Below, one piece after another: positions 1,681-63,095 of a stretch of DNA of 64,000 nt. Origin of the DNA: an uncultured Fibrobacter sp. (GTDB taxonomy: Bacteria; Fibrobacterota; Fibrobacteria; Fibrobacterales; Fibrobacteraceae). Numbering within the stretch: position 1 is the stretch's first letter; every line of letters begins with the position of its first letter. A program made the position numbers and the translations under genes. The stretch is from the NCBI RefSeq assembly GCF_947305105.1, contig NZ_CAMZCS010000007.1:62001-126000 (forward strand). Reading direction: 5' to 3'. The notes under the pieces are model-generated. The model was not told the origin of the DNA. It saw nothing but the letters and a program-made list of their open reading frames with translations, and searched no databases.

Positions 1681-2916
1681 TCAGCGTGTTTTGCGTTTGT
1701 TGACAAGTCTTGTGTAGGTTTCCACCTGCCGCTGGATGATGCCGTCCCATGTGAAGCAATCGGCGATGCGCTTGCGGGCGCCTGCGAGCAGGTTCTCGAG
1801 GAGCGAGCGGTCGCTGGCGATGCGCTTGAAGGCGTTTGCCAAGGCTTCGGGGTCTTTTTCGGGGACAAGGATTCCCGACTCGCCGTCTACGACGACATCC
1901 GGGATACCGCCCACGTTACTCGCGACAATCGGGAGGCCAAGTTCCATCGCTTCGATGAGCACGACGCCCAGACCTTCGGTGTCGCCCTTGTGGTCGACGA
2001 TGGCGGGTAGCACGAATACGTTTGCAGTGCGGTATTCGTTGGCGAGGTCTTCGGGCGAGAGCTTGCCGGTGAAGATGACGTGCGGGTACTTTGCGGCTTG
2101 CTGTTTGAGTTTCTCGGTGAGGTCGCCCACGCCGACGATGCGGATTTCGAACTTGTCGGCAGGCAGGAATTTCGCGGAGTCGATGAGGTAGCAGATGCCC
2201 TTGCGTTCAATGTGCCGCCCAACGAACAGGATCTTGAACTTCCCATTCACCGCATGCGGAACAAGCCCCAAGCCATCTCTCTCGTCTCTCGTCTCTCGTC
2301 TCTCGTCTAAATCGGTCTCTCGTCTCTCGTCTAATGTAGTTCCGTACGGGCTCCATTCTACGTCTACGTTCCGGATGGCCTTGATCTTGCCGGCGGTGAA
2401 GCTCGAGTTCGCGAATACAGCCTGCGCTTGCCCGATGGCGAACTTGAGGAGCGGTTTGACCCATTTCTTTTTGCGGATGAGCAAAAGTTCGGCCCCGTGG
2501 AAATTCAGCACCAGCGGGATGCGGAGGAGCTTTGCTGCGCCGAGCGCGATGTAGGCATGCGGGAACGGCCAGTGTGCGTGGATGATGTCGGGCTTCCACT
2601 GGCGGCATATCTTGAGGCACTTGAAGAAGCCGTTGATAATATAGGGGATAGCGAGGAGCTGTAGCCAGGGCTTGCTCGCCATTTTGGAGGGGGCGCCTTC
2701 TTCGTGCGTGAGGATTTCCCAGTTGGCGGGCGCGTAACGGAAACGATTCACGCGCGTGCCGTCGATTTCGTGGCTCTTGAGCCCTTTGTAAGAAGGGGCG
2801 AGTACCTGGATCTCGACGCCCGCTTTTTTGAGGTGCGCGATAGACGTCCGGAGCCAGGGGACCTCGGCGTCTTCGTGGAATCGGGGATAGACGGAGCCGA
2901 TGACAAGAACTTTCAT
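1681..2916 (-). CDS. GT4-family glycosyltransferase with in-frame heptad-repeat insert
   Basis: A 411-residue GT-B-fold glycosyltransferase of the family 4 type, which transfers a sugar from a nucleotide-sugar donor, probably for exopolysaccharide or lipopolysaccharide. Seen: N-terminal Rossmann start (MKVLVIGSVYPRFHED), HAHWPFPHAY, and the donor-site E-x7-E motif EGLGVVLIEAM followed by GLPIVASNVGGIPDVV near residue 330. Between the two domains, right after SPYGTT, there is an Arg/Glu/Asp-rich segment (LDERRETDLDERRETRDERD) encoded by a 7-nt tandem repeat; this is a surface-loop position in GT4 enzymes. Its start overlaps the stop of the upstream gene by 4 nt, so the two are translationally coupled. 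Acceptor is unknown. Confidence 0.88.
   Translation of the reverse strand: MKVLVIGSVYPRFHEDAEVPWLRTSIAHLKKAGVEIQVLAPSYKGLKSHEIDGTRVNRFRYAPANWEILTHEEGAPSKMASKPWLQLLAIPYIINGFFKCLKICRQWKPDIIHAHWPFPHAYIALGAAKLLRIPLVLNFHGAELLLIRKKKWVKPLLKFAIGQAQAVFANSSFTAGKIKAIRNVDVEWSPYGTTLDERRETDLDERRETRDERDGLGLVPHAVNGKFKILFVGRHIERKGICYLIDSAKFLPADKFEIRIVGVGDLTEKLKQQAAKYPHVIFTGKLSPEDLANEYRTANVFVLPAIVDHKGDTEGLGVVLIEAMELGLPIVASNVGGIPDVVVDGESGILVPEKDPEALANAFKRIASDRSLLENLLAGARKRIADCFTWDGIIQRQVETYTRLVNKRKTR
2276..2334. repeat. Heptanucleotide array inside the GT4 gene
   Basis: On the minus strand the 7-mer AGACGAG is repeated in two blocks (two copies, then four) separated by about ten bases, each block opening with TTAGACGAG. 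Because 21 nt equals three units and seven codons, the array is read through in frame as ERRETRD-like peptide. The same TAGACGAGAG word occurs at the 3' end of ahcY near 24511-24553, outside a coding frame, so this looks like an intergenic repeat that has entered a gene. Confidence 0.85.
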
Positions 2917-24510: not shown

Positions 24511-24553
24511 CTTCTCTCGTCTGTAGCTCGCGCAGCGAGCGTCCTCTCGTCTA
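24511..24553. repeat. CTCTCGTCT element with GCTCGC-GCA-GCGAGC hairpin
   Basis: Two CTCTCGTCT words flank a 6-bp triloop hairpin at 24526-24540. The same 7-nt unit is arrayed inside the GT4 gene at 2276-2334. The TAG stop codon of ahcY is formed by the repeat itself (TAGACGAG on the minus strand). Confidence 0.7.
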
Positions 24554-26011
24554 GTACCTATAGTGATCCGCCTTGTACGGGCCTTCGACGGGCACGCCGA
24601 TGTAGTCGGCCTGGGCCTTGGTGAGGGTCGTCAGGTGAACGCCGAGCTTTTCGAGGTGCAGGCGTGCGACCTTCTCGTCGAGGATTTTCGGGAGCGTGTA
24701 CACGGTGCCGCTTTCGTACTTGATGCCGGCGACGGTCTGCTTGCCCTGGGCGTTGAGCCAGAGGTCGATCTGCGCGATGGTCTGGTTCGTGAAGCTTGCG
24801 CTCATCACGAAGCTCGGGTGGCCGGTGGCGCAGCCGAGGTTGAGCAGGCGGCCTTCGGCGAGGATGAGGATGCTGTGGCCGTCGGGGAAAATCCATTCGT
24901 CGTACTGCGGCTTGATTTCGTTACGCTTGATGCCCGGAATCTTCTTCAGGCCGGCCATGTCGATTTCGTTGTCGAAGTGGCCGATGTTGCCGACGATGGC
25001 GCGGTGCTTCATCTTGCTCATCTGCGCGGCAGAGATGATGCCGGTGTTGCCGGTGGTGGTCACGAAGATGTCGGCGTAGCCAACGACTTCGTCGAGGGTC
25101 TTGACTTCGTAGCCTTCCATGGCGGCCTGGAGTGCGCAAATCGGGTCGATTTCGGTGATGATCACGCGGGCGCCCTGACCGCGCAGGGACTGGGCGCAGC
25201 CCTTACCCACGTCGCCGTAGCCGCACACGACTGCAATCTTACCAGCCATCATCACGTCGGTGGCGCGGTTGATGCCGTCGATGAGGGAGTGGCGGCAGCC
25301 GTAGAGGTTGTCGAATTTGGACTTGGTCACGGAATCGTTCACGTTGATTGCCGGGAACTTGAGACGGCCGGCCTGGGCCATCTGGTACAGGCGATGCACG
25401 CCGGTAGTGGTTTCTTCGGAAACGCCGCGGAGAGCTTCGCGGGCGCGGGTCCACTGCTTCGGGTCCTTCTCGAAAATCTTTTTGCAGGTGGCGAGGAACA
25501 CGCCCCATTCTTCGGAGTCGGTAGCCGGGTTGAATTCGGGCACCTTGCCGGCATCTTCGAATTCGGCGCCGCAGGTCACGAGCATGGTAGCATCGCCACC
25601 GTCATCCACGATGAGGTCGGCGGTCTTGCCGTCGGGCCACACGAGGGCGCGGGCGGTGTTTTCCCAGTATTCTTCGAGCGTTTCGCCCTTCCAGGCGAAC
25701 ACGGGCACGCCCTGCGGGTTTTCCACAGTGCCCTTCTTGCCGACCACGACGGCGGCGGCAGCGTTGTCCTGCGTACTGAAGATGTTGCAGCTGACCCAGC
25801 GCACGTCGGCACCGAGGTCTACGAGTGTCTCGATGAGGATGGCGGTCTGCACGGTCATGTGGAGGCTGCCCATGATGCGGGCACCGGCGAGCGGCTTCTT
25901 GCCTGCGTATTCCTTGCGGAGGGCCATCAGGCCCGGCATTTCTGTTTCGGCGAGGTCGAGTTCCTTGCGGCCTTCGATCGCGAGGTTGATATCCTTGATT
26001 TTGTATTCCAT
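24551..26011 (-). CDS. ahcY: Adenosylhomocysteinase
   Basis: A 486-residue NAD-dependent S-adenosylhomocysteine hydrolase, which splits SAH into adenosine and homocysteine and so relieves product inhibition of methyltransferases. Seen: [16 protein letters not shown] near residue 50, [17 protein letters not shown], the NAD-binding [12 protein letters not shown] near residue 265, [20 protein letters not shown] and the C-terminal [10 protein letters not shown] with the conserved Lys and Tyr that close the cofactor site. Length fits the longer bacterial form. The ATG at 26011 follows AAAAGGAATC. It is a single-gene unit ending inside a repeat. Confidence 0.97.
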
Positions 26012-26073
26012 AATGATTCCTTTTGGCGTGAGTTTTGCAACCATTTTATAGTGGTATTAACTGCGCCGGCTTT

Positions 26074-31400: not shown

Positions 31401-32585
31401 ATGGCAAAAGAACATTTTGACAGAAGCAAGCCGCACTGCAACATCGGCACCATCGGCCACGTTGACCACGGCAAGACCACCCTCACCGCTGCAATCTGCA
31501 CGACCCTCGCCGCCAAGGGTCTCGCCAGCGCCAAGCGTTTCGACGAAATCGACAACGCTCCGGAAGAAAAGGCCCGTGGTATCACGATCAACACCTCGCA
31601 CGTGGAATACACCACTGCCAACCGCCACTACGCGCACGTCGACTGCCCGGGGCACGCTGACTATGTGAAGAACATGGTGACCGGTGCTGCCCAGATGGAT
31701 GGCGCCATCCTCGTCGTTGCCGCTACTGACGGCCCGATGCCGCAGACCCGTGAACACATCCTCCTCGCCCACCAGGTGGGCGTGCCGAAGATCGTCGTGT
31801 TCATGAACAAGTGCGACATGGTCGACGACCCGGAACTCCTCGACCTCGTCGAGATGGAAGTCCGCGAACTCCTGTCCAAGTACGATTTTGACGGCGACAA
31901 CACCCCGGTGATCCGCGGTTCCGCCCTCAAGGCCCTCGAAGGCGACGCCGCCTACCAGGACAAGGTCATGGAACTCATGGACGCCTGCGACACCTACATC
32001 CCGCTGCCGCAGCGCGAGACCGACAAGCCGTTCCTGATGCCGATCGAAGACGTCTTCACGATCACGGGTCGTGGCACCGTCGCTACCGGCCGTATCGAAC
32101 GCGGTACCGTCCACCTGAACGACAAGGTCGAACGCGTCGGCCTCGGCGAGACCACCGAATACGTCATCACGGGCGTGGAAATGTTCCGCAAGCTCCTCGA
32201 CGACGCCCAGGCCGGTGACAACGTCGGTCTCCTCCTCCGCGGCGCCGAAAAGAAGGACATCGTCCGTGGCATGGTTCTCGCCGCCCCGAAGTCCGTCACT
32301 CCGCACACCGAATTCAAGGCCGAGATCTACGTCCTCACGAAGGACGAAGGTGGCCGCCACACGCCGTTCATGAACGGCTACCGTCCGCAGTTCTACTTCC
32401 GCACCACCGACGTGACTGGCACGATCCAGCTCCCGGAAGGTGTCGAAATGGTGACGCCGGGCGACACTGTCACGATCCACACGACCCTCATCGCCCCGAT
32501 CGCCATGGAAAAGCAGCTCCGCTTCGCCATCCGCGAAGGCGGCCGTACTGTGGGTGCTGGCTCCGTAACCGAAATCATCAAGTAA
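31401..32585 (+). CDS. tuf: Elongation factor Tu, first copy
   Basis: A 394-residue EF-Tu, the GTPase that delivers aminoacyl-tRNA to the ribosome. P-loop GHVDHGKT at 19-26, the DCPGH switch II and NKCD specificity motif are intact. AGAGGAAAAA precedes the ATG. It heads the ribosomal protein operon, with 9 bp to rpsJ. It differs from the second copy at only two residues: Thr361 and Thr362 here, Val and Asn there. DNA is identical over 31401-31624 and 31752-32455. Confidence 0.98.
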
Positions 32586-56196: not shown

Positions 56197-56581
56197 CGGT
56201 GAGCAGTGAGCCATGAGGCTTGAGGCACGAGGTTCGAGGCGCGAGGCTAGTGAATAAGAATCACACACTTCGTGCGTTAATATAAGACGGCGAAGCCGTG
56301 ATATTTCTCCCTAGATCCTAGCCTCTGGGCCCTTATCCTTCACACCTCAAAGCGCCGTAGGCGCGACCTCACACCTCAAAGGTCGCGCAAGCGACCGACC
56401 TCGTTGCATAGCGATGAGTTGTGAGCTATGAGGCTCGAGGCACGAGGCTCGAGGCTCGGGAAAAAGCAGTGTGCGGTGTTTTATTATCTTTTTATCGGAC
56501 ATTTAACTTATAAACCTCAAAGCGCCGTAGGCGCGGCCTCACACCTCAAAGGTCGCGCAAGCGACCGACCTCATTGCTACT
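56197..56581. repeat. Repeat-filled gap with a duplicated 64-bp block
   Basis: No gene in 385 bp. Two 7-nt arrays of GAGGCNC type lie at 56215-56249 (five units) and 56430-56457 (four units). A 64-bp block (ACCTCAAAGCGCCGTAGGCG onward) occurs at 56344-56407 and again at 56514-56577 with two mismatches; each copy contains hairpins GCGCC-GTA-GGCGC and GGTCGC-GCAA-GCGACC. A further small hairpin ACGGC-GAA-GCCGT lies near 56287. The second block ends 4 bp before the yggS start. Confidence 0.85.
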
Positions 56582-61910: not shown

Positions 61911-63095
61911 ATGGCAAAAGAACATTTTGACAGAAGCAAGCCGCACTGCAACATCGGCACCATCGGCCACGTTGACCACGGCAAGACCACCCTCACCGCT
62001 GCAATCTGCACGACCCTCGCCGCCAAGGGTCTCGCCAGCGCCAAGCGTTTCGACGAAATCGACAACGCTCCGGAAGAAAAGGCCCGTGGTATCACGATCA
62101 ACACCTCGCACGTGGAATACACCACTGCCAACCGTCACTACGCCCACGTCGACTGCCCGGGGCACGCCGACTACGTGAAGAACATGGTGACCGGTGCTGC
62201 CCAGATGGACGGCGCTATCCTCGTCGTCGCCGCCACTGACGGCCCGATGCCGCAGACCCGCGAACACATCCTCCTCGCCCACCAGGTGGGCGTGCCGAAG
62301 ATCGTCGTGTTCATGAACAAGTGCGACATGGTCGACGACCCGGAACTCCTCGACCTCGTCGAGATGGAAGTCCGCGAACTCCTGTCCAAGTACGATTTTG
62401 ACGGCGACAACACCCCGGTGATCCGCGGTTCCGCCCTCAAGGCCCTCGAAGGCGACGCCGCCTACCAGGACAAGGTCATGGAACTCATGGACGCCTGCGA
62501 CACCTACATCCCGCTGCCGCAGCGCGAGACCGACAAGCCGTTCCTGATGCCGATCGAAGACGTCTTCACGATCACGGGTCGTGGCACCGTCGCTACCGGC
62601 CGTATCGAACGCGGTACCGTCCACCTGAACGACAAGGTCGAACGCGTCGGCCTCGGCGAGACCACCGAATACGTCATCACGGGCGTGGAAATGTTCCGCA
62701 AGCTCCTCGACGACGCCCAGGCCGGTGACAACGTCGGTCTCCTCCTCCGCGGCGCCGAAAAGAAGGACATCGTCCGTGGCATGGTTCTCGCCGCCCCGAA
62801 GTCCGTCACTCCGCACACCGAATTCAAGGCCGAGATCTACGTCCTCACGAAGGACGAAGGTGGCCGCCACACGCCGTTCATGAACGGCTACCGTCCGCAG
62901 TTCTACTTCCGCACCACCGACGTGACTGGCACGATCCAGCTCCCGGAAGGTGTCGAAATGGTGACCCCGGGTGACACCGTGACCATCCACGTGAACCTCA
63001 TCGCCCCGATCGCCATGGAAAAGCAGCTCCGCTTCGCTATCCGCGAAGGTGGCCGCACTGTTGGCGCTGGTTCCGTAACTGAAATCATCAAGTAA
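61911..63095 (+). CDS. tuf: Elongation factor Tu, second copy
   Basis: A 394-residue EF-Tu, 392 of 394 residues the same as the first copy (Val361 and Asn362 here). Same GTPase motifs. Ribosome site GGAGATAG. It lies in the classical tRNA-tuf-secE-nusG arrangement. The DNA is identical to the first copy except for two islands, matching 31625-31751 and 32456 onward. Confidence 0.98.

Follow-up and report, generated by a model that had tools for sequence, protein, structure and literature searches.

How a tandem heptanucleotide repeat comes to be read in frame inside an intact glycosyltransferase gene is the question raised by one locus of a Fibrobacter genome. The window, by which we mean the whole 64,000-nt stretch that was analysed, corresponds to bases 62001-126000 of contig C7 in the source genome (G000, 3.57 Mb). 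G000 was surveyed by genome-wide pattern searches and with a 455-kb sample. The gene and its insert occupy the following positions in the window.

1681..2916, minus strand: GT4-type glycosyltransferase gene, an intact ORF of 411 aa identified by Pfam, for which 59 orthologous sequences were compared in the genus
2311..2334, minus strand: array block 1, 24 nt, TTAGACGAGAGACGAGAGACCGAT, read as LDERRETD, from the sequence
2275..2310, minus strand: array block 2, 36 nt, TTAGACGAGAGACGAGAGACGAGAGACGAGAGAGAT, read as LDERRETRDERD, from the sequence

The two blocks constitute an insert of exactly 20 codons, LDERRETDLDERRETRDERD (2275-2334, minus strand), and block 2 starts with TTAGACGAGAG and ends with ACGAGAGAGAT, as in other genomic copies. 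The preliminary description, which had reported two minus-strand AGACGAG blocks adding about 20 residues, is therefore borne out, with the refinement that block 1 is missing in G013 and G031, two relatives of approximately 99% identity that carry a single block each. Pfam detected Glyco_transf_4 (2e-20) and Glycos_transf_1 (7e-37), both above the cut-off, in the GT4 protein. The first domain ends at residue 184 and the second begins at residue 224, which agrees with the earlier placement of the insert between the two domains, after SPYGTT; it lies in the inter-domain linker, and both flanking domains are intact. The closest solved structures were glycosyltransferases of GT4 type. Four exact matches to the 14-mer AGACGAGAGACGAG (three overlapping and one separate) were found in the window, versus 0.04 expected (0/100 dinucleotide shuffles). 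The fold of positions 2270-2340 on the minus strand gave −2.1 kcal/mol (z, −1.05) with an unstructured centroid, and this folding revealed no stable stem of the RPE type (a palindrome of ~100-150 bp) in the GT4 array. A REP-type palindrome of 20-40 bp with an unpaired GTAG/CGTC tag was likewise absent from the array, and an Rfam scan of the window matched tRNAs alone.

Because 7 and 3 are coprime, reading along a heptamer array passes through every frame, and the product is a single cyclic heptapeptide; when no stop occurs in this heptapeptide, all three frames are open. AGACGAG is read as RRETRDE on one strand and as LVSRLSS on the other and is open in all six frames, as are about half of all heptamers. 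The sole frame requirement is that the total length of the insert be divisible by 3. It had been considered puzzling that an array with a period of 7 was open in its frame. The array is indeed open, but the puzzle dissolves, since a stop-free heptamer is open in any frame. Stop codons act as a filter on the arrays: AGACGAG and GAGGCTC, which are without stops on both strands, were found in genes in both orientations, whereas AGTGGTT, TAGAGGC, TAGAGAC, and TAGGGGC, which have stops on both strands, were found 0 times in genes and 31 times outside genes or at a gene edge. AGTAGGA has a stop on one strand, and where it was read in the sense orientation in GT4 and NUDIX genes the stopping unit was altered (TAG to TCG, or a shifted TTA). 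Because the loci were partly chosen by gene, it is the contrast between the stop classes that counts and not the ratios. AGTAGGA arrays were also observed on the open strand (LLPTSYFLLP) near putative N-termini, the starts of which are uncertain (L187:14362-14404, L191:13590-13620, and L184:10889-10945).

We determined the abundance of the word in G000 and in related genomes. The exact 14-mer AGACGAGAGACGAG occurred 35 times at 22 loci in G000 and the reversed control word 0 times; genome-wide overrepresentation of the word, on which the preliminary description had been set beforehand to stand or fall, was thus found. Among the 61 Fibrobacter genomes searched, AGACGAGAGACGAG was present in 49, with a maximum of 189 per genome, and the control was matched 0 times in all of them. 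In a sample of 72 genomes from the phylum, the 14-mer was detected outside Fibrobacter in two genomes alone (76 matches in a related genome and 1 match in another), so that within its phylum it is nearly restricted to Fibrobacter. The top carriers of the word in a named collection were also Fibrobacter records. The ends of the arrays are regular, usually starting with (T)TAGACGAGAG and ending with ACGAGAGAGAT or a similar sequence. Genomes with the array in GT4 possess 13-189 genomic copies, whereas the median of the other genomes is 6 (p = 2e-6, kinship ignored). G013, G018, and G048 are rich in arrays, and G029, G046, and G060 are free of them. The occurrence of the same residues in orthologues of unrelated genera had been named as a second point against the preliminary description; the array-bearing relatives that we compared all belong to the window's own genus and are congeners rich in the word, and array-free orthologues exist. 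Two observations concern other heptamers. The reversed control word AGGATGAAGGATGA was matched 21 times in G011, which indicates that G011 has yet another heptamer class. Near-identical TAGACGAGAGACGAAAGACGAGAG arrays were found in gut Bacteroidales, namely L072 (Alistipes) and L064, L068, and L103 (Rikenellaceae), and one of those in L072 lies in frame within an 875-codon ORF, beside a CTCTCAA array.

The period of the arrays was examined in 244 kb that had not been picked for arrays. At equal stringency, period 7 was represented by 11 arrays, periods 4-6, 8-11, and 13 by 0, and periods 12, 14, and 15 by 1, 4, and 1, respectively; period 7 is nearly the sole short tandem period apart from codon-multiple periods. 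No period-7 array was found in 200 kb of G029, a congener without AGACGAG. Across the unit classes, 46 of 64 arrays keep AG at the same phase, which gives (T/G)AGNNNN as the general unit.

The preliminary description had proposed tabulating coding against intergenic copies genome-wide. Nine of the 22 loci of G000 lie in frame within conserved proteins and the remainder lie outside. The nine proteins are GT4, LigA ligase, a topoisomerase, a NUDIX hydrolase, a DegT aminotransferase, a LysE exporter, an arginase-family protein (in which the other strand of the array is read), a siroheme-decarboxylase-like protein, and a peptidase-MA-like protein, the Pfam match of which is slightly below the cut-off. 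The LigA array sits immediately before the KIDG motif. In other Fibrobacter, 23 of 72 sampled arrays lie within genes, flanked to either side by coding signal (15 in sense and 8 in antisense orientation), and several of these share the DegT, LysE, arginase-family, NUDIX, LigA, and GT4 loops with G000. When heptamer arrays of all classes are considered, 59 of the 64 sampled lie outside called genes, the coding calls being those of a home-made dicodon gene finder with best-scoring starts. As ~87% of the genome is coding, approximately 7-10% of array insertions into coding DNA would survive, assuming uniform insertion. When genes were screened by k-mers for repeats of every family, 6 matches were obtained in 455 kb (null, 0); this count is a lower bound because the intergenic repeats have degenerated too far to be caught by exact k-mers.

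We compared the SPYGTT-FVGR linker among the 59 GT4 orthologous sequences. Alignment with homologues that lack the insert and comparison of copy number had both been suggested at the outset: array-free orthologues exist, the linker varies from 28 to 116 aa, and copy number differs among genomes as unit number does within loci. The ACGAGAG array is present in 13 of the 59 sequences, AGTAGGA or GAGGCTC heptamers occupy the linker in other species, and in about a third of the sequences the linker is short and plain. In further species the linker contains palindromic repeats, read as CHPERSE..SKDP, CHCEERSDEAIQS, ACPELVEG, or GSLPLASA..ATPSSG, of which CHCEERSDEAIQS is an RPE-like palindrome (GTCATTGCGAGGAGCG...). 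All 59 sequences are in frame. A second recurrent insertion site in GT4, after DLTE.LK.QA, holds REP-like and heptamer inserts (L236-L257). On a GT4 tree built without the linker segments, the ACGAGAG state changed at least 10 times, a rough minimum because the tree came from a short search and has many weak branches. Part of this apparent turnover could be interspecies gene exchange rather than new insertion. In-depth comparison covered four gene families, three of which had been picked for carrying an array in G000. In NUDIX, AGACGAG, GAGGCTC, and AGTAGGA arrays occur at one spot in different species, and in the DegT loop the array occurs in both orientations in different species. In LigA, three near relatives have 1 unit, three further heptamers (+21 nt), or a nested palindrome, with the frame always kept. 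Turnover at one site is recurrent and proceeds in whole units. RPE-/REP-like palindromes are present in the NUDIX and LigA loops as they are in GT4. The GT4 linker is a recurrent sink that is entered by other repeat families as well.

The insert in GT4 is a member of a dispersed family, and we consider it probable that it is a copy of a selfish or neutral Fibrobacter heptamer array retained where frame and loop allow. A copy from another part of the genome would have entered the inter-domain linker, which is permissive, and would then have gained or lost whole units. It would have been kept because AGACGAG is stop-free in six frames and an insert that is a multiple of three adds just a hydrophilic charged loop, (RRETRDE)n. 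Such an array would need no benefit to the cell, as the reading frame, stop codons, and the tolerance of the loop would act as the filter, and the arrays are presumably without function. The arrays may have arrived through templated copying from an ectopic site, in break repair or by a template switch at short homology, and not through a transposase; templated copying in repair would be a fallback that requires no dedicated enzyme. No target-site duplication or donor was identified for the arrays. Two candidate enzymes were rejected. Y1_Tnp, the domain of the RAYT/Y1 transposases, gave 0 matches in G000 and is present in 20 of the 61 genomes of the genus. RVT_1, for a reverse transcriptase adding templated repeats in the manner of telomerase, is absent from G000 and was found in 16 of 61, including the array-free G029. 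It is also conceivable, albeit rather unlikely, that an unrecognised and widespread bacterial process, in which one enzyme or binding protein sets the period-7 (T/G)AGNNNN unit, operates in Fibrobacter and separately in gut Bacteroidales and steadily supplies new coding sequence in frame by delivering stop-free units to enzyme loops.

Some heptamers of the window are associated with hairpins, which bears on the question of what moves. The features concerned are as follows.

24511..24553, minus strand: composite of TAGACGAGAG, a 21-nt GTAG-tagged hairpin GACGCTCGCTGCGCGAGCTAC, and AGACGAGAG, outside genes
24551-26044, minus strand: ahcY, adjoining the composite
56199..56247, plus strand: intergenic array of classes GAGCAGT, GAGGCTT, and GAGGCGC, left of the hairpin core
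56259..56304, plus strand: hairpin core ATCACACACTTCGTGCGT...ACGGCGAAGCCGTGATATT of a composite repeat, with 9 copies in the 455-kb sample
56428..56461, plus strand: intergenic GAGGCTC heptamer array

The preliminary description had noted a second copy of the word with the same opening at 24511-24553. The copy is real and lies outside genes, but it is a composite with a hairpin and not a tandem array, and its opening TAG belongs to ahcY: the composite starts exactly at the ahcY stop, its own TAG (24551-24553) being the stop codon (DHYRY-stop). The hairpin has the palindrome of 20-40 bp and the GTAG tag of a REP. Copies of this composite also fall within genes of other species, where they are read in frame (L228, L210, and L221). 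The composite repeat of the second group has inverted heptamer arrays on both sides of the core AATCACGCACTTCGTGCGT...ACGGCGAAGCCGTGATATT (window 56199-56461; L181, L184, L186, L193, L194, and L195). The unit class shifts along an array, often in a recurring order.

These structures are the basis of an alternative in which the true movers are mobile REP/RPE/MITE palindromes whose hairpins a RAYT-type Y1 transposase mobilises, and the heptamer arrays either ride along with them or are the footprints left by repeated insertion and excision. GTAG-tagged hairpins between AGACGAGAG copies (window 24511-24553, C8, and C10), hairpin cores between inverted heptamer arrays, the palindromes in the same GT4, NUDIX, and LigA loops, and the known existence of intragenic REPs (PMC3733652) are consistent with it. 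However, G000 has 22 array loci without Y1_Tnp, array counts in genomes with and without Y1_Tnp are not clearly different (medians, 20.5 and 8; p = 0.08), and the hairpin is missing from most in-gene AGACGAG arrays of G000. We regard palindrome-driven movement as possible but unlikely. It is quite unlikely that each array was made in place, with no transfer between loci, by local slippage of a native TTAGRCGA-like linker. Some array-free orthologues do show TTAGACGAAGGC, TTAGGCGATAGA, or TTAGGCGAACG at the site, and unit number changes in steps of 7 or 21 nt; against this, the same unit and ends recur at 22 unrelated loci of one genome, both orientations occur at one site, array-free species are without such a native sequence in other loops (NUDIX), and the unit classes are species-wide.

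A phase-variable contingency locus, in which 7-bp slippage toggles the glycosyltransferase, is very unlikely. Gain or loss of a single heptamer by slippage would put the gene out of frame, a surface-glycan enzyme would be a plausible target, and 7-bp repeats act in Haemophilus hmw1A (PMC8262952). However, the same arrays are found in LigA, topoisomerase, and NUDIX, the arrays are short, comprising 2-5 units, relatives have non-tandem palindromes at the same GT4 site, and in a comparison across genomes no frame-shifted allele was seen among the 59 orthologous sequences (59/59 in frame). Selection for a charged RRETRDE linker with a function in domain motion or localisation, the DNA repeat being incidental, would suit a charged and soluble insert lying exactly between the two GT4 domains but is most improbable, as congeners have linkers of wholly different composition (28-116 aa) at the same site, the insert in other genes is the opposite strand (LSSLVSRLSS), and the words also occur between genes.

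The reading of the insert as a copy of a dispersed heptamer array can be compared with known systems. The cyanobacterial STRR comprise several degenerate heptanucleotide families per genome, which are dispersed, mostly intergenic, and sometimes within a functional gene (rnpB). The Fibrobacter arrays resemble the STRR in having a tandem period of exactly 7 and many dispersed, mostly intergenic copies and differ from them in phylum and presumably in units. The known in-gene cases of STRR are in RNA genes, and in-frame inserts in core enzymes are not known among them. The STRR heptamers are the subject of Vioque 1997 (NAR 25:3471).

TAACTGA direct repeats occur in Beggiatoaceae, cyanobacteria, and Bacteroidetes in up to 43 copies with a patchy distribution across phyla and a spreading mechanism that is not known (MacGregor 2015, PMC4679880). 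Within ORFs, they are found chiefly at the ends of proteins or in hypothetical proteins (PMC4679880). They are likewise heptamer arrays, and G000 itself has a TAACTGA-like array (L181:6120-6268, 149 bp of CTGATAA/CTCACAA units). In contrast to TAACTGA, of which the stop-bearing strand is barred from genes, Fibrobacter arrays enter conserved enzymes internally and repeatedly at the same loop.

The RPEs of Rickettsia are palindromes of ~150 bp with a fixed peptide (reviewed in PMC10969869, cited in PMC3733652). The Fibrobacter arrays are similar to them in that dispersed repeats occur both between genes and in frame in unrelated metabolic genes, adding a peptide and leaving the protein family intact, whereas the Fibrobacter unit is a non-palindromic 7-bp tandem that is read in either orientation and in any frame. 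The earlier likening to Rickettsia elements of another sequence type holds for the in-frame and intergenic, non-palindromic arrays, but RPE-like palindromes also enter the same GT4 linker. REPs are single palindromes of 20-40 bp, and those with a GTAG tag are linked to RAYTs (Di Nocera et al. 2013, PMC3733652). Intragenic GTAG/CGTC REPs are similarly small and lie inside genes, among them genes for replication and repair, and the composite at 24511 carries a GTAG-tagged hairpin, whereas the Fibrobacter insert is a tandem heptamer array in a genome without Y1 transposase. In anatomy, therefore, the Fibrobacter arrays are dispersed heptamer arrays like STRR and TAACTGA and are not members of RPE or REP, since the array is without a palindrome and G000 is without RAYT. 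What is new is the in-frame internal entry of tandem heptamers into conserved enzymes at recurrent loops. A search of the open-access literature found no description of Fibrobacter heptamers or intragenic repeats.

In-frame entry of repeats into working enzymes was previously known chiefly for the Rickettsia palindromes and scattered REPs. Tandem heptamers enter enzymes at scale in Fibrobacter, a free-living gut genus, an essential ligase included. One loop with different repeat families in dozens of species provides a comparative set for the conversion of repeat to protein and for loop tolerance. The arrays account for puzzling lineage-specific insertions in Fibrobacter proteins, which should be flagged when structures are predicted or genes annotated. 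A period that is almost exclusively 7, with AG at a fixed place, raises the concrete question of which enzyme generates the arrays. Elsewhere in the window, identical short tandem-repeat consensus words were observed at 31438-31943 and 61948-62453, 30.5 kb apart, which suggests a duplicated gene, possibly tuf, near tRNA genes.
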